Shown here piece by piece: positions 9,701 to 25,865 of a DNA stretch of 46,097 nucleotides. Source of the stretch: a virus. The notes beneath the pieces are model-generated. The model had not been told where the DNA came from, did not search any database, and worked only from the letters and a program-made list of their open reading frames with translations. Numbering within the stretch: position 1 is the stretch's first letter; every line of letters begins with the position of its first letter. The translations under genes were made by a program, and so were the position numbers. The stretch covers positions 1-46,097 of the IMG/VR virus record IMGVR_UViG_3300044490_000149; one strand, written 5' to 3'.

Positions 9701-12700
9701 TACAAGCATCTGACATTCCATCTTTGATTCGTCTTGGATACGATCTTCAAAAGATGAAAGCCGGTTATGGTCAGTATACAAAAAATCTTAATGCTGTTGA
9801 AATTTTCGGTGATACAGGTTTTAAGTTCTTAATATCTACAGGAAAGACATTGGATATAGGGTTACCGGTAAAATTAGCCACAAAATATGCTGAACGATAT
9901 CCTAATGTTGGAGTTATATATGTTGCCATAAATGAGGCAGATTTATTGTCTGCTCTTACTGATCCGCGTATTCATAAAATTATACCTGCACATCTTGGCG
10001 GAGGTACTCCAAAAGAATGGCTCCGGATGGCTACTAACTTGGATTTCGATAATTTCCAAAATCGACAATCTGAAAAAGTAATGTTTAAAGGAAAAAAACG
10101 TAATTTGGCATCTATTACAAATCCGAAATATGTTGAGGCAATGGAAATAATTAAAAAGGGTGCCTCTAAAGGTGATACAAAAAGTTATCTTAATGCCGTA
10201 GAAAAAGCATCAAAATTAATTGGAAAGAAGATAGAGCCAAAATTTAAAGATTATGTGGATAAGCCAGGATACGAAAAATTGATTGGGGTATATGGAGCCG
10301 AATATGGTAAGACGGCCGATATTCCTAAAATAGACATGAGCCGGATGAATATTGAAAAAGCGCGTGCCTATATGGAAACCGAAAACCGGGACATCTCTAC
10401 CGGATCCAATATATACGCAAGTATGGCCAGGTCGCTTATAAAGACCGCTTTGAGTCAAGGCGTAGAAGGCGTTGAGGCCGTAGATGCCATGATTCTAAAA
10501 CAGAAAGCATCCGGCGTAGGTAAGCCGCGTCCGCGAGGATGGATCGAGATTTCAAAGGATCCGGTTGTCCGGGATAAGATATTCCTGGCCGCAAATAGCA
10601 ATGCATCGACGTTTCAGCATGAGTTGGCGCATTGGTATCTGAACGATCTATTTAAGGCAAGTAAGAAGGGTCTTGTTGATGCGGATTATCGGGTCCTGGC
10701 CGATTGGTTGAAGATAAAGGATAATCAGACAGAATTGACCGCTCAACAGCACGAAATGTTTGCCAGGGGATGGGAGCGCTATCTCCGGGAAGGCCGGGCG
10801 CCGTCATCGGAATTGTCAGAAACATTTGCGCGGTTCAAACAATGGCTGACCAAGATATACGAAAGCGTAAAACAGTTACGCGTTCCGCTGTCGGATGATG
10901 TCAGGAAAGTAATGGATAGGATGCTTGCAGATGAAAACGAATCTGTAAATCGTATTGTTGGTGATAAGGAATTAACGCAGGATTTTGTAGAAAGTGTTTC
11001 CGGTGAATTTAAGGAAACTACGGTAAGCGAGGCGATCCGGGAAAGCGCTATGTCGGGTGCATCCACTAAACCATCTAAAAAAGAGGCGGCCAAACCTGCG
11101 CAGGCCGCTCCGGCTACTCCTGCCGCTCCGGCCGAACAGGCGCCTGCCGGTGAGGTTAAAACAGAAGGAGTCGCTCCACAGCCGATAACCAATATTTCCG
11201 GTGAGATCAAAGAGAGTAAGGCGTATAGCAGGGTCCTGGAACGGCATGAAGAATTGTTCTATCAAGGGCCGGTAACCTATACAAAGATGAACCTTGCTGA
11301 AGATGTGGCAAGGGGATGGAAGTTCGCTGACGAACAGCCGGACGCGGCCAGGCGCGTAGCGCTTGGCATAGATGCTCCGCCTCCTGGAGTCAGCGATACC
11401 GCTGTTTCTCTTGCTTATGCCGAAAAGATGAAGGCCGCAGGAAATATAAAGGAATGGTATGAGGCAGAACGTGCGCTATCCTTGCGCCGGACCAGGAGCG
11501 GACAGGAGATCGTAGCACTACGAGGCCGTATAGACGAAAATTCTCCGGAACATTTTGTAAATATGGTAGTTGATGCAAGGTTTAAGATTGCCGGAAAGAA
11601 AATATTCGGAAAAGATAAGCCAGGTTTCAATAAAAAAGTCATTACTGATTTCATAGATGCTGAAAAGATACTACTCAAAGAAAAAGTAGATGCGCAGGAA
11701 TTGGATATCAAAGAGGCGGATGAGATTTTACGTCTATTCCAACAAGATCTTGATCCTATCTCAATTGCCGGCCTGCGTAAAGCGATAAAAGACGGCAATA
11801 TTACTGTTAAAGACCTTATAAATGCAAAATCATCCGCAGAGCGGCGCGCTATGCTCGGAAAATATGTCAGCGAAGATATCGCCACGAAGGTAAATACCGG
11901 TTTTGAGAAGGCGATGGCCACCAAGCGGAAAGGCGCGTTAAAAGATTGGGCAGAAAAGACATTTAAAGGACGTCCGGAAGATAAGGCGTCTATTCTCGAT
12001 AAGATAGATGATCTCAAGGATCTTGGAGTCTTGAGTTCAGATCAGATGCAAACGGTTTACGAAGATCTTATAGCGGATAAACTTGGAATACGGCTAAAGC
12101 CGGCAGAGATCCAGGAGATCATAAAGCGCGCCACAGAATTACAGCAGGTATACGATACGGTATCGCAGAATATAATGACGTCTGATAAATATTGGGCCAA
12201 GCGCAAAGAGGTTGAAGATTATTTGCGTAGTTTAACGCCATCAAGCGCATTAAAAGTGACTACGTCCGTATCCGGACGCGGCGCCATGCTGTTATCGCTT
12301 AAATCTCCGCTTACTAATATCATCAGCAATACTGTCATGGGTGGAATACAGGCGTTTGAGCGCCGGATGGCAAGCAACACGTATACCGGCCTTAACAATG
12401 ACTTTGCTATGGAATACGTCAAAGCGGTCAATAAAATATATCAGGCATCCGGATACGACATTAGCCGTATGGATGGATCATGGCGTAGTGAGATGCGCCT
12501 CGGTGAAGAGATTACGCATTCGCAAGGGCCTGGAATCGCCAGGAAGATCGGCAGAGTATATGAAGATATTGTATTTAAGCAATTGATGGGCGCTCCGGAT
12601 GTTGCGGCATCTTCCATCGCTTTTGCCGATTCTGCGAACCTTGCGTCGTCTAAAATAGCAAGAGCGGAAGGCCTGGCCGGAGAGGCGGCGCAAAAGAGGG

Positions 12701-13968
12701 CGCTTGAAATATTTCAGGATGCAATTAAATTACGTCCGGCAACACCGGAAGGAGAGTTTGTTCGTAGCCAGGCAATTGCAGATGCAAGGTATTCCACATA
12801 TACGAATGAAGGTGGATATAGCAAACTTGCAATGGCTATAAGAAATGGATTAAACGATTTTACCGGTGACGTAAGGATTGGCGATCAGATTATGCCTTTC
12901 GTAAAAACACCGGCTAACGTAGTCCAGGCCGGTGTTGATTTTAGTGGGATTCCTGCTGTTATAGAGTTATTTAAACTTCCATATGCTATGAGAGAATTGG
13001 CTAATGGAAATAAAAAGCCGATACAGCAGGCAATAGATGCCGGAGTAAAGGGTGGAATAGGCCTGGTGATGTCAGCCGCTTTAGTTAGCATGATAAATCC
13101 GGACGACTTTACCGGTGAATATGATTCGTCTACAGATTCGGAAAAGAACGTTGCCAGGGTAAAGAATGCCGCTCCTAATTCTATTAAAGTAGGAGGCAAG
13201 TGGATCTCGCTTGATTATCTTGGTCCGTTAGGTGCGCCGTTTGTCGGTATGATGTATGCTAAAAAATATGGAACCGATCTTCCTACAATGGCATACCAAT
13301 ACGTAAAAGGTGCAGGAAAACAAGTATTAAAGGTTCCTGGCCTTAAAGAGATGGGAGATTTATACGAAAGTTTAAAGAAATCATTATCTGAACAAGATAT
13401 AAAGAAAACCATCGAAGGTCTTTCCAACGAAATGGTGGCGTATATAAGAGCGCGAACAATACCTGGAATAGTAAATGATATTGCCAAAGCGACAGATACA
13501 AACGTTCGCCGGACAGATACTTCCGCTATATCAAAAGCGCAGGCCTCTATTCCGGGATTGCGTCAAAAATTACCGGTAGCAGTATCTCAAGTAACCGGAG
13601 AGCCGATCAGGACAGAAGGAGCGGTATCAGAGTTATTATTCGGTAGCAGGGTTAAAACAGCAATTGATAGTGATGTAGTAAAGGAGATATCAAGATTGGC
13701 TGATGTTAATATGGCGCCGTCTGTATCTGATATAGACCGCACTTCTCCGCGCGTAAAGGAATTACGCAAGCAGATCGGTGAAGAAGAATTCCAGGCGGCG
13801 CTTGAATCATTTGCTGATAACTATTCATCCAAGTTATCAAAATTGATATCTTCATCGACATATAATCGTAAAAACGATGAAGAAAGAAAAAGGGAAATCA
13901 ATAAACTGCGTGGCGAACAGATCGATGCTATGTTAAAGCGATTTCACTATCGTAAAGAGAAAAAGTAA
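6724..13968 (+). CDS. Giant polyvalent injected virion protein with zincin metalloprotease domain
   Basis: 2,414 aa. GTG 6724 is preferred over ATG 6694 because AAGGCGG lies 4-10 nt upstream, and the start LLNSNTNEILEFPDEMS resembles N-termini of related phage proteins. It occupies the gp16 position. Visible parts: alpha-helical N-terminus; a lower-GC segment (about 8240-10300); a Cys-containing module with VCAKGKALK (about residue 880) and TPCLQC at 940-945, followed by VEIFGDTGFKFLIS and KIIPAHLGGG; a zincin-like site FQHELAHW with HExxH at 1299-1303; an Ala/Pro linker; a helical domain typical of large polyvalent proteins (RRTRSGQEIVALRG); and a late hydrophobic segment (GIGLVMSAALVSMI). 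It is likely ejected into the host with the DNA. Protease substrate unknown. Confidence 0.8.
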   Translation: MKLLNSNTNEILEFPDEMSKPEVDNALASYNGQEYILDYKPNFYDRTIAPMFKEAGIDIKDPLSVPIRNPQDLTFNIAVDLGVNYAKQFGRENVSAAAVGAQKTILGINQMIENLLPGKNTKWYFHEMFMRGAEDYVNMREKELSQTPERFGKDFSGALGGLGASLIVDTLTGGYAKEKMLMDATFDKVAPYLARIPGWALGSGLRTFAEQASTGDVVGGMLSGVEATALNTLYGSAGTGLRSIAAMASIGYMESYYNAFKEGRMPTLDETNKSVTHGVALGTIFTTLHMIERAAKPDQKAIIEQYNKDLAKAIDTRDMDVITRVYQDLLNDKRVSKEIKDAVANTYNTAQEEYINTQTTDNVALSRSLALSKVLEFSGYSHDMRRHSLGELTKIVEDNIRVNCPIAADTVVKNAAADFVCNRADELANTVFTAHTDMKTTLMEVGMSEHQAEHNARLYTAMIRQIAKREGRTVQEVHEEKMPEIFKAQGKPGAEVLAQDKIPTLEEYVKSAKRGRVILAKDGMKEEIDALKKGKSAIAEFTVPEELSFQYETGQLNKKLEKLGFYIHDEYGNFVMGKDKKTVDKFIENRKKVKTAYDLGKLYEYSEDDIAAFYLARRGGLEKHAYEEYIEDRKSSQITTKYEQKSKITTQYLEKTFGNDYIPDHTDMMLDDKAWIFPDGRAVRVGDHEDAANALGIAHYDSAQTDFGWVRKNSNGLEYSLWANSRSFKILQDNARALSQLAFGESTRQEYPLIVDIGYRDGKGDTKVKNITLTLDEAEKIDFDLTRLKEVRDMIKHADIYEQRDFANVKRTISGLSDKIPQSEGAGKIPDKVKNSDTDVELAAEEFLSMVFSNPDRFPVEGGSPIRPNADYGINFVPDSVCAKGKALKIQLVTMRQVLDDYLPEPKGPNKKSIQASNAAIKTAVSRKLFEAGIKQGLETPCLQCYEFEKQLTGYQAKPLSVGVRIYRTGQLENYKDFLKTTGILRGYGVGDVQASDIPSLIRLGYDLQKMKAGYGQYTKNLNAVEIFGDTGFKFLISTGKTLDIGLPVKLATKYAERYPNVGVIYVAINEADLLSALTDPRIHKIIPAHLGGGTPKEWLRMATNLDFDNFQNRQSEKVMFKGKKRNLASITNPKYVEAMEIIKKGASKGDTKSYLNAVEKASKLIGKKIEPKFKDYVDKPGYEKLIGVYGAEYGKTADIPKIDMSRMNIEKARAYMETENRDISTGSNIYASMARSLIKTALSQGVEGVEAVDAMILKQKASGVGKPRPRGWIEISKDPVVRDKIFLAANSNASTFQHELAHWYLNDLFKASKKGLVDADYRVLADWLKIKDNQTELTAQQHEMFARGWERYLREGRAPSSELSETFARFKQWLTKIYESVKQLRVPLSDDVRKVMDRMLADENESVNRIVGDKELTQDFVESVSGEFKETTVSEAIRESAMSGASTKPSKKEAAKPAQAAPATPAAPAEQAPAGEVKTEGVAPQPITNISGEIKESKAYSRVLERHEELFYQGPVTYTKMNLAEDVARGWKFADEQPDAARRVALGIDAPPPGVSDTAVSLAYAEKMKAAGNIKEWYEAERALSLRRTRSGQEIVALRGRIDENSPEHFVNMVVDARFKIAGKKIFGKDKPGFNKKVITDFIDAEKILLKEKVDAQELDIKEADEILRLFQQDLDPISIAGLRKAIKDGNITVKDLINAKSSAERRAMLGKYVSEDIATKVNTGFEKAMATKRKGALKDWAEKTFKGRPEDKASILDKIDDLKDLGVLSSDQMQTVYEDLIADKLGIRLKPAEIQEIIKRATELQQVYDTVSQNIMTSDKYWAKRKEVEDYLRSLTPSSALKVTTSVSGRGAMLLSLKSPLTNIISNTVMGGIQAFERRMASNTYTGLNNDFAMEYVKAVNKIYQASGYDISRMDGSWRSEMRLGEEITHSQGPGIARKIGRVYEDIVFKQLMGAPDVAASSIAFADSANLASSKIARAEGLAGEAAQKRALEIFQDAIKLRPATPEGEFVRSQAIADARYSTYTNEGGYSKLAMAIRNGLNDFTGDVRIGDQIMPFVKTPANVVQAGVDFSGIPAVIELFKLPYAMRELANGNKKPIQQAIDAGVKGGIGLVMSAALVSMINPDDFTGEYDSSTDSEKNVARVKNAAPNSIKVGGKWISLDYLGPLGAPFVGMMYAKKYGTDLPTMAYQYVKGAGKQVLKVPGLKEMGDLYESLKKSLSEQDIKKTIEGLSNEMVAYIRARTIPGIVNDIAKATDTNVRRTDTSAISKAQASIPGLRQKLPVAVSQVTGEPIRTEGAVSELLFGSRVKTAIDSDVVKEISRLADVNMAPSVSDIDRTSPRVKELRKQIGEEEFQAALESFADNYSSKLSKLISSSTYNRKNDEERKREINKLRGEQIDAMLKRFHYRKEKK

Positions 13969-14052: not shown

Positions 14053-15489
14053 ATGCTACCAGGATTAGTTACCTACAATAAGTTTACAGGAAATGGGGGC
14101 GCCTACGAGTTTACCTACACTTTTAAGATACTGACCACAGACGGATCAGATATTCTTTTGTATGTAACTGAGGGTGGAGTGACCACAGCAATCACATCCA
14201 ACTACTCTATTAACGTAGACAATTCGGTTGTCACATATCCTACTCTTGTATCGGGACTTCCAAAACTTACGGCATCACAGGTATTGACTGTTCAAAGACG
14301 CGAACCTTTAACGCAAGCCGTAGATCTCATTAACCACGGATCATTTGATGCAGAGGTTGTAGAGGCGGAATTCGATAAACTTACTGCAATTACACAGCAG
14401 TTGCAAGAGCAGATAGACGGAGGGTTTGATTCTAATAATACCGGGCCTACCGGTGCTTCCGGCGTTTCCGGTTATAGTGGATACTCCGGAGAGAGTGGGT
14501 TTTCCGGAGAATCGGGAATGTCGGGTTACGGAGAGTCCGGGTTCTCTGGGGTTTCGGGATATAGCGGAGAGAACCCCGGCGCATCCGGGTATTCGGGTGA
14601 TAGTGGGTTTAGTGGTTTCTCCGGGTTTAGCGGTTTCTCCGGTGCGCAGGGTCCGTCCGGTGGCGGTGCCATGCCGATAGGTTCGATAGTGGCTTGGAGC
14701 GAGGCAGACATTCCGGCAGATTTCCTGTTGTGCGACGGTTCTTCTCTTGAAAGGGTTGGTACATACGCTGACCTTTTCGCTGTAATAGGGACGACTTATG
14801 GTGCGGTAGACGGCGATCACTTTAACTTGCCGAATCTTAAAGGCAGGGTAGTGGTAGGCGAAGATTCGTCCTACAGCGGATTCTCTGGTCTTGGAGTTTC
14901 CGGTGGTGAAATTAACCACACTCTCTCCGTGGCAGAAATGCCAACGCATACGCATACTTTTACAAAAGGTACTTCTTCGGCAGATGCAGGACACGTTCAG
15001 TATTGTTCGCAGAATACTGGTTCTAATAGTACAAGCGAAGTTGGTGGTTCTGGAGCGCATAATAATCTTCAGCCGTACCTTACTCTTTACTACATCATTA
15101 AGTACCAAGTCACTCCCATAGCGACTACCGGTGCGTTGGAGTTGGTTATAGATGGCGGTGGGACTGCTATTACTACCGGTAAGAAGGTCCAATTTACAAT
15201 GCCATGGGATTGCGGTCTGGACGGATATGTGATGGTTGCAGATCAACCGGGAGCGATTGTAGTAGACGTTAATCGTTCTACGTATGCTGATTTCCCAACT
15301 ACCGCAAGCATATGCGGTTTGGGGAAAGAGTGTACGATAGCGGCAACGAATCAAAAATCGGAAGATTCTGATATATCGGATTGGACATCTGTAGACCTTG
15401 TAGAAGGTGATATAATAGAGTTAGAGGTAGACAGTTGCACAACGATACAGCGCTGTACTTTGTCGCTGTTATATCATAGGAATGTGTAA
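14053..15489 (+). CDS. Tail fibre 1: adaptor, pseudo-collagen, phage collar domain, C-terminal beta domain
   Basis: 478 aa; ATG 14053 follows AGGAG. Residues 1-125 form an N-terminal virion-attachment domain (FTGNGGAYEFTYTFKI, then VDLINHGSFDAEVVEAEFDK), like T7 gp17-type adaptors. Residues 133-205 are Gly-X-Ser triplets. Next is a Phage_Collar-type domain (PIGSIVAWSEADIPADFLLC, FNLPNLKGRVVVG, and a MPTHTHTF motif of the kind that binds metal or caps trimers). The C-terminal ~115 residues (ELVIDGGGTAITTGKKVQFT onward) form a beta domain common at phage fibre tips. Probably a host-recognition fibre. It shares its adaptor with the fibre at 15970. Confidence 0.85.
   Translation: MLPGLVTYNKFTGNGGAYEFTYTFKILTTDGSDILLYVTEGGVTTAITSNYSINVDNSVVTYPTLVSGLPKLTASQVLTVQRREPLTQAVDLINHGSFDAEVVEAEFDKLTAITQQLQEQIDGGFDSNNTGPTGASGVSGYSGYSGESGFSGESGMSGYGESGFSGVSGYSGENPGASGYSGDSGFSGFSGFSGFSGAQGPSGGGAMPIGSIVAWSEADIPADFLLCDGSSLERVGTYADLFAVIGTTYGAVDGDHFNLPNLKGRVVVGEDSSYSGFSGLGVSGGEINHTLSVAEMPTHTHTFTKGTSSADAGHVQYCSQNTGSNSTSEVGGSGAHNNLQPYLTLYYIIKYQVTPIATTGALELVIDGGGTAITTGKKVQFTMPWDCGLDGYVMVADQPGAIVVDVNRSTYADFPTTASICGLGKECTIAATNQKSEDSDISDWTSVDLVEGDIIELEVDSCTTIQRCTLSLLYHRNV
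14446..14664 (+). repeat. Pseudo-collagen Gly-X-Ser repeat, fibre 1
   Basis: About 70 codons of Gly-X-Ser triplets with X mostly Tyr, Phe, Val or Glu, interrupted once by ENPGA. The 9-nt periodicity is obvious, but individual copies use different Ser and Gly codons, so the DNA is not a perfect tandem repeat. Confidence 0.9.
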
Positions 15490-15959
15490 TGGCAAATATA
15501 GACATGTGTCTTGCGGCGAATGGGGCCACGTTAGCAGATTCTGCTGACGGATATATTAACGATAATAACTGGTTGACTGCATGTGGTAGATACCTATTCG
15601 TTAATCCCAGCGGTTCGGATGCAGCAAACTATTCCATACTTACGAGAGACTGTACAATTCAATCGATCGAGTGGGGTACGTATAACAATAACAATCTATC
15701 GGGTCCTACGGGCGGAGCGAATACATACTTGTATGTCACTTCTAACGGAGTGGAGACTTTAAGAGACGCATATCCGTATTCCTGGTCCGACAGAAATTAT
15801 GTGAACAGACGTACGATTAATATTACTTTAACGCACGTGACGAAGATTCGTGTATATATGACTTGTTGGACATCTCTCGGACTGGAAAGAGTCTGGTGTC
15901 ACGATGTTCAGGCATGGGGATTTGTACCATCTAAAGCAACGCAAGTAATTATTATTTAA
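15489..15959 (+). CDS. Uncharacterised fibre-associated protein
   Basis: 156 aa; ATG 15489 overlaps the fibre 1 stop codon by one base. It is beta-rich, with several Cys (CLAANG, TACGRY, TRDCT, MTCW, VWCHD) and many Asn, Thr and Trp residues. No family was recognised. Its position between two fibres suggests a fibre tip, a chaperone or an interchangeable receptor-binding subunit. It lacks an adaptor domain of its own. Confidence 0.55.
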   Translation: MANIDMCLAANGATLADSADGYINDNNWLTACGRYLFVNPSGSDAANYSILTRDCTIQSIEWGTYNNNNLSGPTGGANTYLYVTSNGVETLRDAYPYSWSDRNYVNRRTINITLTHVTKIRVYMTCWTSLGLERVWCHDVQAWGFVPSKATQVIII

Positions 15960-15969
15960 GGAGAGCAAA

Positions 15970-18900
15970 ATGCTACCAGGACTGACTACTTCAACATGGG
16001 GATATGGTGATGGCGTAGGGCCAATTGGAAACCGGAATTGGACTTACGATTTTAAGATTCAGCAAGATTCAGATATCCAGATATACATAACATCTCCGGC
16101 CGGTGCAGTAACGCAGATCACTTCCTCCTATCTGGTAGACAGTGTGCATAGTCAGGTTATCTATCCTACAGTCGGTTCCGGACTCGATCCTCTTCCGGTT
16201 GGGTGGACTATTGAACTTCGCAGGATACTGCCATTGACGCAATTAGTAGACCTTATTAATCACGGATCGCTTGATGCTGAAGTGGTAGAGGCAGAGTTTG
16301 ATAAGATCACTATGATATTGCAGCAGTTAAACAACAAGATGGGCATACAGGGTTATTCAGGTGTCAGTGGGTTTAGCGGACAGGCAGGAGAGTCCGGAAC
16401 AAGCGGCATGTCAGGCGACTCTACTTCTGGTTTTTCTGGGGCCTCTGGGGCCTCTGGTGCAAGTGGTTTTTCCGGAGAAGGAACTTCTGGTGTTAGCGGG
16501 TTTTCCGGTGAAAGTGGTTATTCTGGAACAAGTGGTTGGTCGGGAGTATCCGGGGCAAGCGGTACAAGCGGATTCTCTGGTGAGAAAGGAGATTCTGGCG
16601 TTTCCGGATTTAGCGGAGTATCCGGTTTCAGTGGAACATCCGGTTTTTCGGGAATGTCTGGTGTATCAGGGTATTCCGGAGAGGCGGCCTCTTATGAGTT
16701 CGTATGGAAAAATCCTGTTATAGAAAGACGGTCCTCTGATAGTGGCCTTACTCCGGTTGACGGAGATCGGTATATTATTATTCCTCCAGGTGAGGACGGA
16801 TGGCTCGGTAAAGATAGCGATGAAGTAGCAACATATGATACGGATCATTGGAACTATGAAATACCCTCGGATGGTTGGACCTTATATGTAGAAGATGAGA
16901 ACGCTATATATCACTATAACGGTGTAACGTGGATCAAGGTTTCAACTGGTGAGCCGATATCAGGATTCTCCGGATATTCGGGAAGTGGTGTATCCGGGTT
17001 TAGCGGCACTTCCGGAGTATCCGGTTATAGTGGCGCGGCAGGTGTATCCGGTTTTAGCGGATGGTCTGGAGTATCGGGATTTAGTGGAGAGTCTGGAGTA
17101 AGCGGGTTTAGTGGTTTTTCTGGAGCATCTGGAACAAGCGGATTCAGTGGGGTCTCCGGATATAGTGGAGAAGGTACGAGTGGTTGGTCCGGCGTATCGG
17201 GGTTCTCCGGCCAGAGTGGAGTAAGCGGATTTTCGGGAGAGTCTGGTTATAGTGGTACAAGCGGATATTCAGGAGAGCGAGGAGCAACAGGTGGTAGTTA
17301 TATAAAATCCTTTACGAATGCGGATCTTGTAGCGGGAATGCTCACAGTTGTACATAATTTAGGTGAGCAATATTATGTAGCAGAAGTTGTAGATAATAAC
17401 AATAAAGCAATAAATCCAGACGATATAACCTTTTCCACTGCTACTACCGCTATCGTATCATTAGTTTCTTTTGGTACGATTACCGGAACATGGCGTTGTG
17501 TTATTTCCGGAGGTGGGTTGAGCGGCTATTCAGGAACGGCTGGAGCAAGTGGTTATTCTGGAAGATCAGGATATAGCGGCAGATCCGGTTACAGTGGTGC
17601 CGGAACAAGCGGTTATTCCGGCAGGTCCGGATATTCCGGCAGATCCGGATACTCTGGAGGAAGTGGGTATTCCGGCAGAAGTGGTTATAGTGGAAGTGGT
17701 ATAAGTGGTTTCAGTGGAGCCTCTGGATATTCAGGAGTAAGTGGATTTTCCGGTGAAAGTGGTGTTTCCGGTTATTCAGGATCTGGTATATCCGGATTTA
17801 GCGGCACAAGTGGATTCTCTGGAGAGATCGGAGAATCAGGATATTCGGGAGAGTCAGGATATAGTGGAGATTCTACCTCTGGATATAGCGGTGTGTCTGG
17901 GTTCTCCGGAGTAAGCGGATTCTCCGGAACGAGTGGATACTCCGGGGTAAGCGGATATTCCGGAGAGGGGACATCAGGTTATTCCGGAGAGATTGGACTT
18001 CCTGGCGATTCAGGTTATTCGGGAATCAGCGGATATTCCGGAGTGTCCGGGCATTCGGGAGTGAGTGGTTTTTCCGGGACTTCCGGGTATAGTGGAATCG
18101 GAACGAGTGGATATTCTGGAACGTCGGGATACTCCGGTGAAAGTCTTGGGGAATCCGGTTATTCGGGTGAGAGTGGATATTCCGGCGTCTCCGGTTTTAG
18201 CGGAGTTAGCGGTTTTAGCGGAGTGAGTGGGTTTAGTGGAAAATCTGGTTATTCCGGTGAGGTAGGCGCCACAGGGACCAGTGGATACTCCGGCGAGGTT
18301 GGAGAATCCGGCTACTCGGGCGAAAGTGGAGTATCAGGGTATAGCGGATATTCGGGGGTATCGGGTTTTTCGGGTGTTTCAGGATTTAGCGGTAGATCCG
18401 GTTATTCCGGTCCAGAGGGTGGCACAGGGCCAAGAGGAGTGTCCGGTTATTCCGGGTATTCTGGAGTCAGTGGTTTCAGTGGTGTTAGCGGTTTTTCCGG
18501 AAGTGGGATATCCGGCTATAGCGGAGAAAGTCTTGGCGAGTCCGGATATTCCGGGTATTCCGGTGTCTCCGGGTATAGTGGAACGAGTGGCTATTCGGGA
18601 GATAGCGGAGTAAGTGGCTACTCTGGTACGTCTGGTTATTCGGGTTATTCAGGAGTCTCCGGTTATTCCGGGGACAGTGGATATAGTGGAGTAAGTGGCT
18701 ACTCCGGTGTGTCAGGATTTTCGGGTACTTCAGGATTTTCGGGTGTATCGGGTTATTCCGGAGTAAGCGGTTATTCAGGTAGCGCAGGTTATGATACCGG
18801 CACTCCCTTCTTTTTCCATCATGACGGTTCTGACATTCCTACGTATGAAGGACTCAAGCGTATCCCTGCGGAGAGTCCGGAGGACGACGAGGCGGTAACC

Positions 18901-19653
18901 TGTACTCTCGCCGATACTGAATATCTGGTTGATCCCTACATTACAATAGAAGGAGTTCCTGGGATAACTTCTCTTCCGGCCGGACTTTGGCAGTTCCATA
19001 TGTACCATTATGTGAACAATGCAAGCGGTGATTCAAGAGCCGTGTATAGGGTATTCAAGAGAACGACAGGCGGTAGCGAGACTGAAATCTTTAATGTCAC
19101 AAGCGATGAGATAAACGCAACATCTGTAGCGGAGTACATTACAAGTTATGTACTAACCTCTCCGTATGCTCTTGACGCAACCGACCGCATAGTGGTAAAG
19201 GTTTATGTAAAGTCCACGTCGGCAGGACGCATCGTACACTTCGTTTACGAGGGTACGCTCAACGTTTCGTACGTGATCACTTCTATGACGGTACCTGGCG
19301 TATCTGGTTACTCGGGTTATAGTGGAGTATCCGGCTTTTCTGGAGTATCGGGTTATAGTGGTGTTTCCGGTTACTCCGGAGTGTCAGGTTATAGTGGAGA
19401 TTCTACTTCCGGGTATTCTGGAGTTTCGGGATATAGTGGTTATTCCGGAGAATCGGGTTACTCTGGAACGAGTGGGTACTCTGGGATCGGGACATCTGGA
19501 TATAGTGGAGGTAGCGGTTATAGTGGTAGTGGTGGTAGTATGACCATCTACGGCCCATACTCAAACAATGCTGAAGCGATTGCGGATGGCAGAAGCGTTG
19601 GGGATTTCTATAGAACAGGCGATGACCCAGATACCGTCTGTGTGGTCCATTAA
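15970..19653 (+). CDS. Tail fibre 2: long pseudo-collagen fibre with inserted beta domains
   Basis: 1,227 aa; ATG 15970 follows AAGGAGAG. Residues 1-125 are paralogous to fibre 1 (MLPGL start, VDLINHGSLDAEVVEAEFDK). Four blocks of Gly-X-Ser triplets are separated by three folded inserts: a DUF2793-like module (about 240-325, GDRYIIIPPGEDGWLG...YHYNGVTWIKV), a small beta module (about 440-510, FTNADLVAGMLTVVHNLGEQ), and a larger beta-sandwich (about 940-1105, TPFFFHHDGSDIP...LPAGLWQFHMYHYV). It ends with YSNNAEAIADGRSVGDFYRT, a widespread phage C-terminal tag. Likely a very long trimeric fibre with lateral knobs. Confidence 0.83.
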   Translation: MLPGLTTSTWGYGDGVGPIGNRNWTYDFKIQQDSDIQIYITSPAGAVTQITSSYLVDSVHSQVIYPTVGSGLDPLPVGWTIELRRILPLTQLVDLINHGSLDAEVVEAEFDKITMILQQLNNKMGIQGYSGVSGFSGQAGESGTSGMSGDSTSGFSGASGASGASGFSGEGTSGVSGFSGESGYSGTSGWSGVSGASGTSGFSGEKGDSGVSGFSGVSGFSGTSGFSGMSGVSGYSGEAASYEFVWKNPVIERRSSDSGLTPVDGDRYIIIPPGEDGWLGKDSDEVATYDTDHWNYEIPSDGWTLYVEDENAIYHYNGVTWIKVSTGEPISGFSGYSGSGVSGFSGTSGVSGYSGAAGVSGFSGWSGVSGFSGESGVSGFSGFSGASGTSGFSGVSGYSGEGTSGWSGVSGFSGQSGVSGFSGESGYSGTSGYSGERGATGGSYIKSFTNADLVAGMLTVVHNLGEQYYVAEVVDNNNKAINPDDITFSTATTAIVSLVSFGTITGTWRCVISGGGLSGYSGTAGASGYSGRSGYSGRSGYSGAGTSGYSGRSGYSGRSGYSGGSGYSGRSGYSGSGISGFSGASGYSGVSGFSGESGVSGYSGSGISGFSGTSGFSGEIGESGYSGESGYSGDSTSGYSGVSGFSGVSGFSGTSGYSGVSGYSGEGTSGYSGEIGLPGDSGYSGISGYSGVSGHSGVSGFSGTSGYSGIGTSGYSGTSGYSGESLGESGYSGESGYSGVSGFSGVSGFSGVSGFSGKSGYSGEVGATGTSGYSGEVGESGYSGESGVSGYSGYSGVSGFSGVSGFSGRSGYSGPEGGTGPRGVSGYSGYSGVSGFSGVSGFSGSGISGYSGESLGESGYSGYSGVSGYSGTSGYSGDSGVSGYSGTSGYSGYSGVSGYSGDSGYSGVSGYSGVSGFSGTSGFSGVSGYSGVSGYSGSAGYDTGTPFFFHHDGSDIPTYEGLKRIPAESPEDDEAVTCTLADTEYLVDPYITIEGVPGITSLPAGLWQFHMYHYVNNASGDSRAVYRVFKRTTGGSETEIFNVTSDEINATSVAEYITSYVLTSPYALDATDRIVVKVYVKSTSAGRIVHFVYEGTLNVSYVITSMTVPGVSGYSGYSGVSGFSGVSGYSGVSGYSGVSGYSGDSTSGYSGVSGYSGYSGESGYSGTSGYSGIGTSGYSGGSGYSGSGGSMTIYGPYSNNAEAIADGRSVGDFYRTGDDPDTVCVVH
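16348..19540 (+). repeat. Pseudo-collagen Gly-X-Ser repeat blocks, fibre 2
   Basis: Four blocks, approximately 16348-16690, 16955-17295, 17518-18786 and 19297-19540, together encoding well over 200 Gly-X-Ser triplets. X is Tyr, Phe, Val, Thr, Glu, Ala, Asp, Arg or Trp; proline is nearly absent. Serine fills almost every third position. Codons are strongly shuffled between copies (Ser as agt, agc, tcc, tct, tca, tcg). Confidence 0.9.
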
Positions 19654-19664
19654 AGGAGAGCAAA

Positions 19665-20342
19665 ATGTCTAACGAAGCGACTGGCGGTTTATATTCAAGA
19701 GCAGAGGGTAAGAATGCCTTATCGCACCTTTACGGAGGTAGGACAAGACAGGTCTTTGAGATTACCCAGAGGGACGAAAGTTCAGGACAAGGCTCGGCTC
19801 AAATCCACGAAGTAATGCTTGCTGCGGAGTCTCCCGATACAGCGAATACCTCAGCAAACTTCCTTACTGGAGATTATAGCGAATTTTTCCTTGACGGAGT
19901 GGGCGGTTCTGAAAGACTTATAATCCCAGCAAACTGTGCTTGGAATTTCACAATAGAAATGGTGGCGAATGGTAAATATCCATCTACTGAGTTATATAAC
20001 ATTAGTAGTCCACATATTATAAATGGTGGCTCTATATGGAATGATGGGACAGAGTTAAGAAATCCTAACGCTAACCCATTATGTAATGCCAAGTTTAATC
20101 AGTCGGCAAACATTACCAATTTTAGGTATTATGATATGGACGCAGATACATTGACAACTGACCCGTCCTATAATTATTTTGGTGATAATATTCATGCCAC
20201 TTTTATTCTTTGCGTTGACACTACTCTCGGAGCATTGAGGATGTTTGTCAGAGAGCAATTTGCTGATTGCGCTACAGTATTTGTGGCACATATGAGGATT
20301 ATAGAGATTAAGTATTCATTCCCAAGTACAAGTTCTTCATAA
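19665..20342 (+). CDS. Uncharacterised fibre-region virion protein
   Basis: 225 aa, preceded by AAGGAGAGCAAA, the same ribosome-binding leader that precedes the fibre at 15970. The sequence contains VFEITQRDESSGQGSAQIHE and a strand-rich C-terminus typical of phage-encoded beta-sandwich receptor-binding or fibre accessory proteins. No named family was recognised. Base usage here and in the next gene looks different from the CCGG-rich neighbours, which suggests separate acquisition with the glycosyltransferase fusion. Confidence 0.55.
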   Translation: MSNEATGGLYSRAEGKNALSHLYGGRTRQVFEITQRDESSGQGSAQIHEVMLAAESPDTANTSANFLTGDYSEFFLDGVGGSERLIIPANCAWNFTIEMVANGKYPSTELYNISSPHIINGGSIWNDGTELRNPNANPLCNAKFNQSANITNFRYYDMDADTLTTDPSYNYFGDNIHATFILCVDTTLGALRMFVREQFADCATVFVAHMRIIEIKYSFPSTSSS

Positions 20343-20343
20343 T

Positions 20344-22422
20344 ATGGCTACTGAAAACCAGATAAAAGAGTTCAGAAAGTTGTTTGACGAAAAAGAGGGC
20401 AAGGACTTCCCCCTTCCGCAGTTTAGCGGCAAGGGAATAGTCACTACCGCAGGGGGTCATTGCTTTATCTGTATGGCGTATGCCTCTTTCAAACTATTAA
20501 GGCATTTAGGATGCACCTTGCCGATAGAGTGGTTTTACATTGACGATAAGGAGATGCCCGCCAGATACAGAAAATATATAGAGGACATCGGCAACGTAAA
20601 ACTCATTAAAGTCGATGGGATAAAGCAAAACAGCAGTTATTGGAAGGAAAAAGGTGGTTGGCAGTCAAAGGTCAAGGCGATAATGCAGTCCTCATTCAAA
20701 GATGTGTTGTTTCTTGACGCTGATTGTTTCTGTATTAAAGACCCGACATATCTCTTTGATGAGACGGAGTTCAAGCAGTATGGTGCGTTCTTTATGCCAG
20801 ATACGAGGAAGTGGGACACCGAGAGGTGGGCTACTTTGGGCGAGGTATTCGGTGTAGATTTTAATCCTGAACACCACGAGTTTGAGTCATCGGTCATAAT
20901 GGTTGATAAGGACAGGTGTTGGAAAGCACTTAACCTTGTAGACTTCATAAACGGACACTCCGACCTGATATACGAGTTCGTGTATGGCGATAAAGACACC
21001 TTCTACTTCGGGTTTAGGAAGGCGAAGAAGGACTACTTCATCAATCGTGGCTCGCTTATCAAGGCGGGCGGTCTTTTTATTCACAGGGACTACAAGGGTT
21101 TTCCGTTATTCAGACACCTCACCGGAGCAAAATTCTCTACCGTATCGGGCGGTTGGAAGCATAACCATAAGTTGTTTCCTTATACGACCCTCGCCTATTC
21201 GTATATGGACAGGATGAAACAGATACACTTGAAAGAGAAATTACCCGAACCTCAAGAGGTTAAACTCTCCGACATTTGTATCATGGTATCCACTTGCGAG
21301 AAATATAAAGACAGAGCGAAGGCTGTTCTTGAAACTTGGGGCCGGGGTTTAGATAACCTATACTTCATCGTGGATAAACCAATGGGACTTCCTAACGAAG
21401 TCGTTACTGGATTTTCCACCTATCACGAACTGTCGCAAAAAAGTGCCTTCATGTGGGATTGGGCATCCAAGCAAAATTACAAATGGTTCATCAAGATAGA
21501 CGATGATTCTTATTTGTGGACCGATAGGCTTGTTAAAGAACTTTGTAAATACGATCACAGAACTAAAATGGCTCTTGGTGATCTAACTAATATGAGTGAG
21601 TGTGCTAACTGGTGGGACATCTATTGGATTTCTGGCGGTGCGGGGATTGTTTTAAGCAAGCCCGTTCTCGCATATATCAGCGGCAATACTCCAGAGAAAT
21701 ATGCAGGGATGGAGGATGTATGGTTATCGGATATTCTCATTGGCCTTAAGGTTCCTATGCTTAATGTACCGGGGATGTGCCAATATTTTGATGACAATGT
21801 GAATTTTGAAAAACTGATTTCTCTGCACGAATTAAATCCGGAGGATTTGTACGCTCTGGATAAGGGCGAAAAAATCACCGCCCGATACCGCATACGCACA
21901 AGGGATTATTTACCTGCTTTCTTTGAGAAAGAAGGATACAGGGTGGGAGTGGAGGTCGGGGTTTGGGAAGGCGAGTTCTCGGAGCATATCCTCAAGCATT
22001 GGTCTGGTAAACTTTATTCGGTAGACCCTCTTAAAGAAGATAAGAGGTTGCCGAACATAGCCATGGTCAATCTTCCGCAAGAGAAACTTGACGCTATATA
22101 CGCCACCGCAATCTCCAGATTAAGCAAATACGGCGATAGGAGCGTATTTGTCCGCAAGAGTTCGATAGAAGCATCAAAAGATTTTGAAGACGGAAGTTTG
22201 GATTTCGTCTACATAGATGGACTCCATTATTATGACAATGTGATTGAGGATATCAAGGCATGGATCCCTAAAATCCGCAAGGGCGGTATAATTTCAGGAC
22301 ACGACTATTACGAAGACACTTGGGGATGTGCGGTAAGGAAAGCGGTCGATATGTTGGTTCCTAATGTAAGTCATACCCTTGAGAAGCGGGCAAGCGTTTC
22401 TTGGTATAAAATCATAGAGTGA
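20344..22422 (+). CDS. Three-domain fusion: GT71-like, GT31-like and methyltransferase
   Basis: 692 aa. Residues ~25-290 resemble the alpha-mannosyltransferase family (Mannosyl_trans3/GT71): GKGIVTTAGG, LPIEWFYIDD, WQSKVKAIMQSSF and the DxD motif LFLDADCF (DAD at 125-127). Residues ~300-510 resemble beta-glycosyltransferases of the Fringe/GT31 type (DICIMVSTCEKYKDRAKAVL, FIKIDDDSYLW with DDD at 386-388, ISGGAGIVLSK, GMEDVWLSDIL). Residues ~520-692 are a class I SAM methyltransferase of the Methyltransf_24 type (GVEVGVWEGEFS at 535, VYIDGLHYY, GGIISGHDYY). It probably builds and caps a short glycan. It lies directly behind the fibres, with different codon flavour. Acceptor unknown. Confidence 0.8.
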   Translation: MATENQIKEFRKLFDEKEGKDFPLPQFSGKGIVTTAGGHCFICMAYASFKLLRHLGCTLPIEWFYIDDKEMPARYRKYIEDIGNVKLIKVDGIKQNSSYWKEKGGWQSKVKAIMQSSFKDVLFLDADCFCIKDPTYLFDETEFKQYGAFFMPDTRKWDTERWATLGEVFGVDFNPEHHEFESSVIMVDKDRCWKALNLVDFINGHSDLIYEFVYGDKDTFYFGFRKAKKDYFINRGSLIKAGGLFIHRDYKGFPLFRHLTGAKFSTVSGGWKHNHKLFPYTTLAYSYMDRMKQIHLKEKLPEPQEVKLSDICIMVSTCEKYKDRAKAVLETWGRGLDNLYFIVDKPMGLPNEVVTGFSTYHELSQKSAFMWDWASKQNYKWFIKIDDDSYLWTDRLVKELCKYDHRTKMALGDLTNMSECANWWDIYWISGGAGIVLSKPVLAYISGNTPEKYAGMEDVWLSDILIGLKVPMLNVPGMCQYFDDNVNFEKLISLHELNPEDLYALDKGEKITARYRIRTRDYLPAFFEKEGYRVGVEVGVWEGEFSEHILKHWSGKLYSVDPLKEDKRLPNIAMVNLPQEKLDAIYATAISRLSKYGDRSVFVRKSSIEASKDFEDGSLDFVYIDGLHYYDNVIEDIKAWIPKIRKGGIISGHDYYEDTWGCAVRKAVDMLVPNVSHTLEKRASVSWYKIIE

Positions 22423-22433
22423 GGGAGAGGCCG

Positions 22434-22664
22434 ATGGATAAATACGGAGAATATGTCGCTAATGAGGGCAGGAAGTCTTTCAGAAGACAGCAGATTTTAC
22501 AAGAGTTGTCGGTATTAGATAGTAAGAGTTTGCGTTCGCTACGGTCAATTTCAGCAGGTGAATCATCTGAAGTGGATGGAACTACCTTGAGGGATTTGGA
22601 AGACAAGGCACAAGCGTTAAGGGTGGAGTTTGGAGAATTGGCTCCCAGTGAATATGTAGAATAA
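22434..22664 (+). CDS. Small charged helical protein
   Basis: 76 aa from ATG 22434, with GGGAGAGG at 22423-22430 just upstream. It is mainly helical and highly charged (KYGEYVANEGRKSFRRQQIL), with a Ser/Glu-rich middle. No family was recognised. It sits between two glycosyltransferase genes and may be an accessory or structural spacer protein. Confidence 0.55.
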   Translation: MDKYGEYVANEGRKSFRRQQILQELSVLDSKSLRSLRSISAGESSEVDGTTLRDLEDKAQALRVEFGELAPSEYVE

Positions 22665-22713
22665 GTTCGTCGGGGAGAATGAGCGTAACAATCAACAAGG
22701 AGGAGAGCGTACA

Positions 22714-23064
22714 ATGGTGTCGATAATCATACCGACCTACACAAATGCCAAAGGATTGGTCGAGTGTGTGGAAAGCGTAAAGAAGTACACGGATATGAGT
22801 CAGGTAGAACTCATAGTCGTAGCAAATGGCGCTCCGGAAGAGTCCAGGAAGTATGCCACGTTATGGTTTGACGAGCCGCTTGGTTATGCAAAGGCGGTTA
22901 ACGCCGGGATCCGCGCGGCAAAGGGTGATTATATAGTCCTGTTAAACGACGATTGTGTTCTGTTGCCACAGCCGGTAAACAAATGGATCGAGATGTTGAG
23001 GAAACCTTTTGATGATGATAGGAATAACCGGGCCGACGTTAGCATGGTCGGAAACGCAAAATGA
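22714..23064 (+). CDS. GT2 glycosyltransferase, N-terminal half only
   Basis: 116 aa; ATG 22714 has a strong AAGGAGGAG site. It shows the nucleotide-sugar-binding half of a GT2 GT-A fold: start VSIIIPTYTNAKGL, central GYAKAVNAGIRAAKGDYIVL, and metal-binding NDD at 78-80. It runs out into an unrelated tail after about residue 98. The acceptor half continues in the +1 frame from 23012. This is either a two-piece enzyme translated from overlapping genes or an old frameshift. Confidence 0.75.
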   Translation: MVSIIIPTYTNAKGLVECVESVKKYTDMSQVELIVVANGAPEESRKYATLWFDEPLGYAKAVNAGIRAAKGDYIVLLNDDCVLLPQPVNKWIEMLRKPFDDDRNNRADVSMVGNAK

Positions 23065-23347
23065 TTGGTGCGTAATATTCTATTGCGCGATGATACGGAG
23101 GAAGGTCTTTGAAGATGTCGGTTTACTTGATGAGCGATTTGGCGCGGGGAATGGAGAGGATGTCGAGTTTTGCATTAGAGTCCAGGATGCCGGATGGAGC
23201 ATTAAAGAGGCCGGCGATCCTATTAAATATACGCCGAACAGAATAATGGGTAAATTTCCGATAGATCATATCGGATCAGTAACTTTGGAGCCATATGGTA
23301 GGAATAACAGGGCCAGTTTTAGGATGGTCAGATCCGGCGCGCAGTAA
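23012..23347 (+). CDS. GT2 C-terminal half module A
   Basis: 111 aa from ATG 23012, with GAGGAAA at 22998-23004 (spacing 7), so independent initiation is plausible. It contains only the acceptor-side half of a GT2: IGITGPTLAW, IFYCAMIRRKVFEDVGLLDE and GNGEDVEFCIR (the conserved ED before the C-terminal helix). It completes the upstream half at 22714, which lies in the 0 frame. It is one of three diverged copies of this module (see 23295 and 24104). Confidence 0.7.
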   Translation: MMIGITGPTLAWSETQNDWCVIFYCAMIRRKVFEDVGLLDERFGAGNGEDVEFCIRVQDAGWSIKEAGDPIKYTPNRIMGKFPIDHIGSVTLEPYGRNNRASFRMVRSGAQ

Positions 23348-24119
23348 GTTCGTAATATTCTACTGCGCCATGATAAAGCGCGAGGTGATCGATAAGATAG
23401 GACTTCTTGACGAGTCTTTCCAGGAAGGTGCCGGGGAAGATACGGACTTTTGTGTAAGGGCATTGGATGCCGGATATAAACAGGCAGAGGTTCCGGATAA
23501 ACCAAAATTCATAGGAGGACAATTCTGCGGTGGGTTTCCTATATATCACAAAGGCGAGGCAACTGTTGGAAAGTTGGAAAACTGGAATGAGATATTTCAT
23601 AGAAACAGCGGGAGACTTGCCGACAAGTATAGCGATCGTCCTATCCGTCTTAATCTCGGTTGTGGTCCTTATTATATGGACGGTTACGTTAATATTGATC
23701 TTTTCAACGACGTGGCGGATATAAACTGCGATGCTACGGATCTGTCCAGGTATAAGTCCGGAACGGTGGATGAGGTATATGCAGGACATCTTTTGGAGCA
23801 TTTCTCTCCATACCGGGTGATGGCTATTTTACGTGAATGGGCAAGGGTGCTAAAACCGAATGGCCGGCTTGTTATGGAACTTCCGGATATAGAGGAATGT
23901 TGCAAGCAATATGCCGGAGCAGATAAAGGTAAGAAGTATGAGATCCTTACTTGCATATATGGACAATTGCCGGATGTTAAGGTTCCACATCAGTATGGAT
24001 GGGACCTGGAACTTCTTACAGATCACCTTACCTGGGCCGGATTTATTGATATAGTTAAAAAACCACAACAGGTTTATCATGGCGGCTATAACATGAGGAT
24101 AGAATGCAAAAAGGCGTAG
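23295..24119 (+). CDS. GT2 C-terminal half module B fused to a SAM methyltransferase
   Basis: 274 aa; ATG 23295 has GGAG 4 nt upstream and overlaps module A by 53 nt. Residues 1-105 repeat the GT2 acceptor half (VGITGPVLGW, IFYCAMIKREVIDKIGLLDE, GAGEDTDFCVR, GGFPIYHKGEATV). Residues ~115-274 are a class I methyltransferase (IRLNLGCGPYYMDGYVNIDL, then GHLLEHFSPYRVMAILREW and LKPNGRLVMELP), the type often found in LPS and capsule clusters. No nucleotide-sugar-binding half is present. The GT part would need a partner or serves as a binding module. Confidence 0.75.
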   Translation: MVGITGPVLGWSDPARSKFVIFYCAMIKREVIDKIGLLDESFQEGAGEDTDFCVRALDAGYKQAEVPDKPKFIGGQFCGGFPIYHKGEATVGKLENWNEIFHRNSGRLADKYSDRPIRLNLGCGPYYMDGYVNIDLFNDVADINCDATDLSRYKSGTVDEVYAGHLLEHFSPYRVMAILREWARVLKPNGRLVMELPDIEECCKQYAGADKGKKYEILTCIYGQLPDVKVPHQYGWDLELLTDHLTWAGFIDIVKKPQQVYHGGYNMRIECKKA

Positions 24120-25432
24120 GCATAACAGGAATCAGAGAGCATACAGAGGTAGGGATTCCTTTCCTGATAGGGTTTTGCTTGATGATTAAAAAAGAATGCC
24201 TGGATGAAATAGGCCTTATGGATGAACAATTCGGTATAGGCGCTATGGAGGATGTAGATCTATGCCATAGAGCGCGCCTTGCCGGATGGGGTATGAAGGC
24301 AGTCCAGGGCGTCAATATACAACATATTCCGGAGCAGACAGTTCACCATCTTCCGCAGGGCCGGCAATATTGGGAAGATCATTTTAAGAAGAATCAGGAT
24401 CTCCTGGCCAGGAAGTGGAATCTTAAACGGAAAGTGACGGTGGATATATGCACAAGAAACAGATATCAAACGACTCTTCCGCTTTGCCTCAATTCTGTCG
24501 CCATGCAAAGTTATGTGCCTTACGAAGTGATTATATACGACGATACGGATACGTCTTTCCGGAAAGATATGAGGCAGGATCCTGTCTTAAGTCATTGCCT
24601 TGTCCTATTACAACAAAAGGGAATCTCCTGGCGTGTGATATTCGGAGAAGGCCGGGGACAGGTGGAAGGACATAGGACAGCGCTAAAAGAGGCAAAGGGA
24701 GAGTTTATCTGGCGCTTGGATGATGACAATGTTCCGGAGCCGGATGTCTTGGAAAAACTGATGAAAAACTTTGAACCGGATGTCGGCGCGGTCGGCGGAC
24801 TTGTCCTGGATCCGGGTAAGGTATCAACGTCATCCATAGCAAGTAACAAGATAGAGGATATATATCTTGGCCTTAATGTTCAATGGTTTCGCCAGGATCG
24901 GAAGATCGAAGTCGATCACCTGTACTCTACCTTTGTGTATAGGAAAGACCAGGATTATTACCCTACAGGGTTATCGCGCGTAGGGCATCGTGAAGAGACG
25001 ATTATGACCTATAGGATGCGGAGGCAGGGTTGGCGCCTGATTGTTGATCCTGGGGCAATTACGTGGCATTTAAGGGGTCCTACAGGGGGTATTAGGGGCG
25101 AAAAAGGCGATTTTTGGGCAAAAGACGAGCAAATCTTCTCGCAGATGCTTATAGATTGGGGCGTCCGGCCGACTATATATAAGACCATAACGCTCGATAA
25201 TGGAATAGGAGATCACTATGCGTTTCGCAAAGTCCTTCCTAAAATATTGTCTCGTTATCCTAATTTTATACTTGCTTGTTGCTATCCCGACGTGTTTAGT
25301 TCTTTTCCTGTTAGGATTGTTTCGATAGGGGAGGCCAGGGCGGCAGGGTGGGGAGATAACATTTACCGGTTCATGGTGGAAAATAACTGGAAAGGAAATA
25401 TTGTAGAGGCGTATGAAAAGTATTATTGTTAG
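24104..25432 (+). CDS. GT2 half module C + complete GT2 + N-terminal GT9 segment
   Basis: 442 aa; ATG 24104 has GAGG 5 nt upstream and overlaps the previous gene by 16 nt. Residues 1-105 are the third copy of the GT2 acceptor half (VGITGIREHTEVGIPFLIGF, GAMEDVDLCHR). Residues ~110-345 form a complete GT2 (VTVDICTRNRYQTTLPLCLN, WRLDDDNVPEPDVL, GHREETIMTYRMRRQGWRLI). Residues ~365-442 look like the start of a GT9 heptosyltransferase fold (DNGIGDHYAFRKVLPKIL), which continues in the next gene. A composite multi-transferase. Confidence 0.72.
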   Translation: MQKGVGITGIREHTEVGIPFLIGFCLMIKKECLDEIGLMDEQFGIGAMEDVDLCHRARLAGWGMKAVQGVNIQHIPEQTVHHLPQGRQYWEDHFKKNQDLLARKWNLKRKVTVDICTRNRYQTTLPLCLNSVAMQSYVPYEVIIYDDTDTSFRKDMRQDPVLSHCLVLLQQKGISWRVIFGEGRGQVEGHRTALKEAKGEFIWRLDDDNVPEPDVLEKLMKNFEPDVGAVGGLVLDPGKVSTSSIASNKIEDIYLGLNVQWFRQDRKIEVDHLYSTFVYRKDQDYYPTGLSRVGHREETIMTYRMRRQGWRLIVDPGAITWHLRGPTGGIRGEKGDFWAKDEQIFSQMLIDWGVRPTIYKTITLDNGIGDHYAFRKVLPKILSRYPNFILACCYPDVFSSFPVRIVSIGEARAAGWGDNIYRFMVENNWKGNIVEAYEKYYC

Positions 25433-25865
25433 TCCGTGGTCGCATGGTCCGGATAATGCTAAAACGTATCCGCACATGCAGTCATTGTGCGATATGTTTC
25501 GCAAGGACTATAGGTTGATTCAGATCGGATTAGGCAACGAGTCCAGATTAACCGGATGTGACTACGCATGGAACCTGCGTCTTTCGGATGTTGAAAAATT
25601 AGTTAAAGAGGTAGGTTATTTTATATCAATAGATAATTTTTTGCATCATTTGGCGTATAACCTGGACGTACCTGGCACTGTTATCTTTGGGCCGTCGGAT
25701 CCAGAGATATTCGGGTATAAGACCCAGATCAATGTGATCAAAGACAGGTCACTCTTACGAACGGATCAATTCGGGTTCTGGAAAGGATATAAATGGCCTA
25801 ATGCTGATACAGGGTGGTATCCGGCCGAGGTCATCTATAAAATGGGGGTGATGTACTGTGTATGA
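25413..25865 (+). CDS. GT9 (heptosyltransferase-like) C-terminal half
   Basis: 150 aa; ATG 25413 overlaps the previous gene by 20 nt, with AGAGG 3 nt upstream. It contains SIIVSPWSHGPDNAKTYP and YFISIDNFLHHLAYNLDVPG followed by VIFGPSDPEIFGY. These are the nucleotide-sugar-binding features of GT9 enzymes such as ADP-heptose:LPS heptosyltransferases. The N-terminal half lies at the end of the upstream protein in another frame, so GT9 appears split as GT2 is. It likely acts on a surface or virion glycan. Confidence 0.7.
   Translation: MKSIIVSPWSHGPDNAKTYPHMQSLCDMFRKDYRLIQIGLGNESRLTGCDYAWNLRLSDVEKLVKEVGYFISIDNFLHHLAYNLDVPGTVIFGPSDPEIFGYKTQINVIKDRSLLRTDQFGFWKGYKWPNADTGWYPAEVIYKMGVMYCV

Follow-up and report, generated by a model that had tools for sequence, protein, structure and literature searches.

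In a viral record of 46,097 bases from IMG/VR (IMGVR_UViG_3300044490_000149, classed as linear; this whole stretch is called the window below), two tail fibre genes rich in Gly-X-Ser triplets are followed by a block of glycosyltransferase (GT) genes, and every gene discussed here lies on the plus strand. The conserved cassette within the block is marked by a protein segment that joins a GT2 domain to the N-terminal half of a GT9 (GT2-GT9N, 24431-25432). In many unrelated phages, Gly-X-Ser fibres are linked to soluble glycosyltransferases that form a conserved set, and since fibre and enzymes occur together across so many unrelated viruses, the fibre is probably coated with sugars by its own virus. 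Phage-encoded O-glycosylation of the fibre serines is in our judgement the best explanation, with a probability of about 0.7. It is preferred because the linkage holds in both directions and is specific to the fibre type in genomes of 38-494 kilobases (kb), because the enzymes are soluble and encoded in a tail operon, and because SgtA/BclA3 of Clostridioides difficile provides a precedent. A self-glycosylating fibre had been suggested in the original prediction for this DNA; the two-way linkage favours it, while O-glycans on serine and a 'bottlebrush' form are what we infer.

Linkage of fibre and enzymes

Searches of viral contigs with the single proteins encoded at 24104-25432 and 20344-22422 gave no matches, and relatives were therefore found with a two-sequence profile made from the window protein and its counterpart in the Methylophilaceae phage P19250A, a cultured siphovirus of 38.7 kb; the counterpart matches GT2-GT9N at 37-41% identity. 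The profile found at least 291 relatives in viral contigs, 80 of which were fetched. This and the following surveys cover the matches listed only, in records that are fragmentary and from environments that are unevenly sampled, and related viruses among them are not independent. In P19250A the fibre (1201 amino acids, 281 Gly-X-Y triplets, 225 with serine; annotated as 'tape-measure protein') is directly followed by a methyltransferase, GT2-GT9N and the C-terminal half of the GT9 (GT9C). Searches with P19250A proteins gave no close relative that could serve as a sister phage without the cassette, nor did they recover Venkman, a phage related to P19250A (PMC8163748).

The linkage was examined from both sides. 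Starting from the fibre, a nucleotide pattern matching Gly-[Phe/Tyr]-[Ser/Thr] hexapeptides picked out at least 120 stretches, split into 93 with Gly-X-Ser and 27 with Gly-X-Thr or other repeats, which served as an internal control; 120 proline-collagen stretches formed a second one. GT2-GT9N is present in 45 of the 93 Gly-X-Ser stretches, versus none of the 27 Gly-X-Thr or other stretches (Fisher 5e-7) and none of the 120 proline-collagen stretches (Fisher 2e-20). Over whole records the numbers rise to about 60 of 90, with 0 of 26 and 0 of 23 in the respective controls. Starting from the enzyme, 13 records reach 25 kb or more, and 11 of them contain a Gly-X-Ser motif (one motif is weak, and two records are near copies of one phage), versus none of 50 proline-collagen records above the same length limit (Fisher 1e-10). 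Record L076, which had been considered as a positive without a Gly-X-Ser fibre, was rejected: its fibre has 34% serine, just below the cut-off. The co-occurrence proposed in the original prediction is hence borne out for the GT2-GT9 cassette, which tracks Gly-X-Ser fibres and is absent beside Gly-X-Thr and proline-type fibres found alike, and the reverse pattern, a block mostly in phages without such fibres, did not appear among the long enzyme-selected records.

These counts bear on an alternative, namely that the enzymes alter the O-antigen or capsule of the host, for example in superinfection exclusion, and lie beside the fibre in a hot spot of host-range genes. GT9 enzymes are typically heptosyltransferases, and sets of GT2, GT9 and methyltransferases are typical of O-antigen loci, which speaks for remodelling of the host surface. 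Phage glycosyltransferases encoded close to tail fibres are also commonly interpreted in this way, as in pelagimyophages (PMC7029224) and jumbo phages (PMC7824862). Such a role does not predict the specificity for one fibre type: by Pfam, 28 of the 117 genes within 4 kb of Gly-X-Ser fibres encode a GT2, versus 4 of 96 near Gly-X-Thr and 2 of 110 near proline-type fibres, and GT2-GT9N occurs in no record of the latter two types. Moreover, the genes stand within the tail operon and no membrane-anchored enzyme of the Gtr type is present in the block, in which no membrane segment was detected (the top 19-residue hydropathy of 1.39 is below the membrane range), and no integrase match was obtained among the window open reading frames (ORFs) scanned with PHROGs, a scan of the larger ORFs of a possibly incomplete record. 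We therefore regard host-surface remodelling as unlikely.

Some fibres of other types have different enzymes nearby. In L048, L059, L070, L097 and L121, Gly-X-Thr fibres lie less than about 4 kb from other, often long GT2s unlike those of the Gly-X-Ser cassette. At L220:2798-6962, from a phage or a eukaryotic virus, a proline-type collagen fibre has as its neighbours a 2OG-Fe(II) oxygenase and a GT25/PLOD-GT/2OG fusion protein; this combination is known for animal collagen and resembles mimivirus L230.

Organization of the cassette

From the 38.7-kb genome of P19250A up to records of 494 kb the cassette keeps the order fibre, GT2 (often carrying a methyltransferase), GT2 with one half of a GT9, and the remaining GT9 half. 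GT9C follows GT2-GT9N in 70 of the 81 representatives with room for it, and a GT2 precedes or is fused to GT2-GT9N in 49 of 87. Relative to its nearest fibre, the module lies downstream in 43 representatives and upstream in 18; fibre and enzyme share a strand in 61 of 62, with a typical gap of about 1 kb. One complete cassette (L324:3810-9405; 216-triplet fibre, GT2, GT2-GT9N, GT9C) is on a contig binned with an archaeal Nitrosotalea metagenome-assembled genome and is probably a mis-binned virus.

Could fibre and cassette simply be common among phages of the same hosts, or have moved together by chance, with no enzyme-substrate relation? The sole cultured example infects a freshwater Methylophilaceae bacterium, and the fibre label is clustered by relatedness on the enzyme tree, both as shared ecology would have it. 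However, the pair is present in a podovirus-type window, in a siphovirus and in records of 103-494 kb, and the close spacing on one strand is not accounted for; this explanation appears improbable to us, somewhat more so than host remodelling. On the tree itself, which comprises 88 representatives, a clade of 58 has a fibre nearby in 52, many of them selected by the fibre.

GT2-GT9N and GT9C are naturally fused in a single ORF in L140 and L143, and no fusion of a fibre with a glycosyltransferase was found in the loci inspected. The model of the L143 fusion protein (pLDDT 88.5) has a GT-A domain resembling chondroitin polymerase, B4GALNT1, many polypeptide GalNAc-transferases and collagen galactosyltransferase. 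Polypeptide GalNAc-transferases make up the majority of the matches, at the level of the fold (TM about 0.3) and in a PDB in which such entries are numerous, and the modelled likeness lends weak support to fibre glycosylation.

Fibres and enzymes of the window

Fibre B (15970-19653, 1227 amino acids), the presumed sugar acceptor, contains 232 Gly-X-Y triplets in runs of four or more, of which 202 have serine in third place; 500 shuffles of the same composition yield a mean of 12 triplets and a maximum of 37. Fibre A (14053-15489) adds 24 triplets, 19 with serine in third place, and the total of 221 serine triplets agrees with the more than 200 previously reported for the fibres at 14053 and 15970. 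Both match the Pfam Collagen family PF01391 (E 3.8e-79 and 2.4e-7). The repeat unit is a hexapeptide, Gly-aromatic-Ser-Gly-nonaromatic-Ser: aromatic and non-aromatic X residues alternate in 175 of 215 neighbouring triplets, a degree of alternation equalled in 0 of 2000 shuffles, and all six serine codons are used in third place. By their matches, both fibres start with a podoviral tail-protein adaptor, with residues 6-120 of fibre A matching phrog_1640 and other PHROG tail families and the two N-termini being 50% identical over 126 amino acids. Beyond the adaptor, fibre A consists of a 24-triplet shaft, a Collar knob and a Gp10_C domain (Pfam), and fibre B of its Gly-X-Y shaft with small interrupting domains, including DUF2793 at residues 253-321. 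A 156-residue protein with no Pfam match (15489-15959) is encoded between both fibre genes.

The enzymes lie 3' of fibre B in the same orientation, downstream of the tail genes, though not directly after the fibre as had been stated: an ORF for a 225-residue protein without a Pfam or PHROG match (19665-20342) intervenes. The first enzyme (20344-22422, 692 amino acids) combines three Pfam domains, a GT71-like (PF11051), a GT31/Fringe-like and a Methyltransf_24 domain. It is followed by a GT2 N-half, the nucleotide-sugar half with an NDD motif (22714-23064); by a GT2 C-half with the catalytic-base motif GEDVEFC (23009-23347), which overlaps the N-half by 56 nucleotides in the +1 frame; by a second C-half fused to a Methyltransf_11 methyltransferase (23295-24119); by an ORF with a third C-half, a complete second GT2 and the GT9 N-half (24104-25432, the last two being the marker GT2-GT9N); and by GT9C in an overlapping ORF of its own (25413-25865). 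The GT71, GT31, GT2 and GT9 enzymes and two methyltransferases of the original prediction are thus found at 20344-25865, with the qualification that its GT2 and GT9 genes are partly half-genes. Of that transferase set only the GT2-GT9 cassette recurs with the fibre; the GT71/GT31 enzyme has no relative in any locus compared and, judged by this, is accessory and outside the conserved cassette. No 2OG-Fe(II) oxygenase or GT25/PLOD domain was found by Pfam in the ORFs from 14053 to 25432. GT9C of the window scores 21.8 bits against Pfam GT9, just below the cut-off of 22 bits, and eight of its relatives match Glyco_transf_9. The profile of the first GT2 is closest to chondroitin synthase, heparosan synthase, RmlT and GalT1, and matches the solved GalT1 (5hea) with E 7e-12.

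The first GT2 of the window (22714-24420) is split into a single N-half and three C-halves in overlapping, shifted frames. All three C-halves begin at the same point (VGITG) and carry a catalytic-base motif, and the N-half and the first C-half form one whole GT2 if read together with a +1 shift. The first two C-halves are 280 nucleotides apart, which is not a multiple of three, and differ with dN 0.36 and dS 1.68. In relatives the first GT2 is unbroken, and some have multi-GT2 ORFs of 1265-1469 amino acids. The split may reflect a GT2 array that underwent frameshifts and deletion, a fault in the assembly or some form of regulation. Programmed frameshifting and combinatorial half-enzymes were considered and are disfavoured: leaving aside genes at contig ends, the fetched loci contain a single further GT2 that is clearly split, in L201, and there several ORFs resembling homing endonucleases (GIY-YIG, NUMOD3) interrupt or flank glycosyltransferase genes (L201:1210-8950), so that damage, rearrangement or assembly error is likelier. 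GT2-GT9N and GT9C lie outside the split and are intact.

Genomic context

The remaining gene content gives the window what PHROG matches identify as a podovirus layout: tail tubular proteins (570 and 1214), an internal virion protein (4291), a terminase (36816), a head-tail connector (39402), a protease (42573) and a major head protein (43338). The ORF at 6694-13968 (2424 amino acids), whose sole PHROG match is to a large phage protein family without assigned function (residues 1280-1415), possibly encodes an ejected virion protein. At 33806-35391 a radical SAM protein adjoins a phosphoadenosine phosphosulfate reductase-like protein.

Comparison with known systems

No description of the cassette was found in the literature searched. 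Serine-rich-repeat adhesins of Gram-positive bacteria resemble it in having a serine-rich fibre with a glycosyltransferase cluster of its own, as at the Fap1/GalT1 loci; GalT1 is linked to Fap1, and such cell-wall adhesins are exported by SecA2. In contrast to the phage fibres, the Fap1-type repeats are not collagen-like. The gtrABC seroconversion clusters are likewise phage-borne glycosyltransferases, but are membrane enzymes that modify the O-antigen of the lysogen, whereas the block of the window is soluble and stands beside tail genes.

The closest proven analogue, as far as gene arrangement and repeat type allow the comparison, is SgtA/BclA3 of C. difficile, in which sgtA adjoins bclA3 and its glycosyltransferase places GlcNAc on Thr, and also on Ser, of the collagen repeats (PMC7157674). 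Common to both are a collagen-like protein, a hydroxyl residue in third place and a glycosyltransferase gene alongside, and in the cassette tested here the association is found again in different lineages and depends on the type of repeat, as a pairing of the SgtA/BclA3 kind would be. BclA3, however, is a spore exosporium protein with GPT repeats and one known glycosyltransferase, unlike the phage tail fibre with almost no proline, serine in place of threonine, and several glycosyltransferases and methyltransferases. Mimivirus modifies its own collagen-like proteins with an enzyme of its own, the hydroxylase/glycosyltransferase L230 (PMC9614988), and in this it is similar to what we propose for the phages; L230 differs in that its target is hydroxylysine and its domains are of the GT25-like and lysyl hydroxylase kinds, neither of which was found in the block of the window. 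According to a review of prokaryotic collagens, glycosylation is absent in most cases (PMC8968730).

A further possibility is that the enzymes glycosylate another part of the virion, such as the capsid or a different tail protein, and that the serines merely form a hydrophilic shaft. Glycosyltransferases encoded by mycobacteriophages reportedly decorate their own virion (Freeman 2023, cited in PMC10955285), and we know of no collagen-like Gly-X-Ser fibre or GT2-GT9 cassette described in those phages. A relative in our own material, L131, has the glycosyltransferase cassette and no Gly-X-Ser motif, and encodes a tail sheath stabiliser resembling T4 gp15, whose roughly 24 TPT tripeptides make up a mucin-like sequence (L131:12181-14172). 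A different virion target would nevertheless leave the preference of the enzyme for serine fibres over threonine and proline types unexplained, and we consider it very improbable.

A proposed model of fibre glycosylation and its implications

If the fibre is the substrate, nucleotide sugars of the host would feed the cassette enzymes late in infection, and short O-glycans would be built on the fibre serines. One of the GT2 enzymes would start them, the second GT2 and the GT9 would lengthen them, and O-methylation would cap them; in the window alone, the GT71/GT31 enzyme may add further sugars. In the predicted triple helix, which is nearly free of proline, third-position sugars could replace the stabilising role of hydroxyproline. 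The outcome would be a stiff, hydrated, sugar-coated fibre that might confer protease resistance or surface adhesion.

Several observations weigh against fibre glycosylation. It is read from genes and not from virions or glycans, glycosyltransferases gather at fibre loci of other phages too, and more than one enzyme of the cassette is a candidate for the start on serine. The activity of the first GT2 in the window is uncertain because its gene is in pieces, an N-half and three C-halves. A clade of 19 representatives on the enzyme tree has no Gly-X-Ser fibre within the fetched stretch; it consists mostly of short contigs, and among its long records two have a strong fibre elsewhere and a third a weak one. 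Finally, ten Gly-X-Ser records of at least 40 kb have no GT2-GT9N, four of the ten no GT2 at all, and the pair of fibre and enzyme is therefore not obligatory.

More tentatively, enzymes might be matched to fibre chemistry in general: Gly-X-Ser repeats would be served by GT2/GT9, Gly-X-Thr repeats by glycosyltransferases of other kinds, and proline/lysine collagens in some cases by 2OG hydroxylases and GT25/PLOD, as happens in animals and mimivirus. Viral pseudo-collagens might then be a large group of virion fibres, so far unrecognised, that are glycosylated by their own viruses and have sugars in the role of hydroxyproline, an idea that we hold possible, if doubtful.

Glycosyltransferases that phages encode near their fibres are usually presumed to alter the host surface; a cassette bound to one fibre type in many lineages suggests that the substrate is the fibre of the phage itself. 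With P19250A one member is in culture, which makes the idea directly testable. If true, it would reveal an extra layer of modification on receptor-binding structures, provide small enzymes for the glycosylation of repeat peptides, and give a hint of how proline-free collagens could be stabilised.

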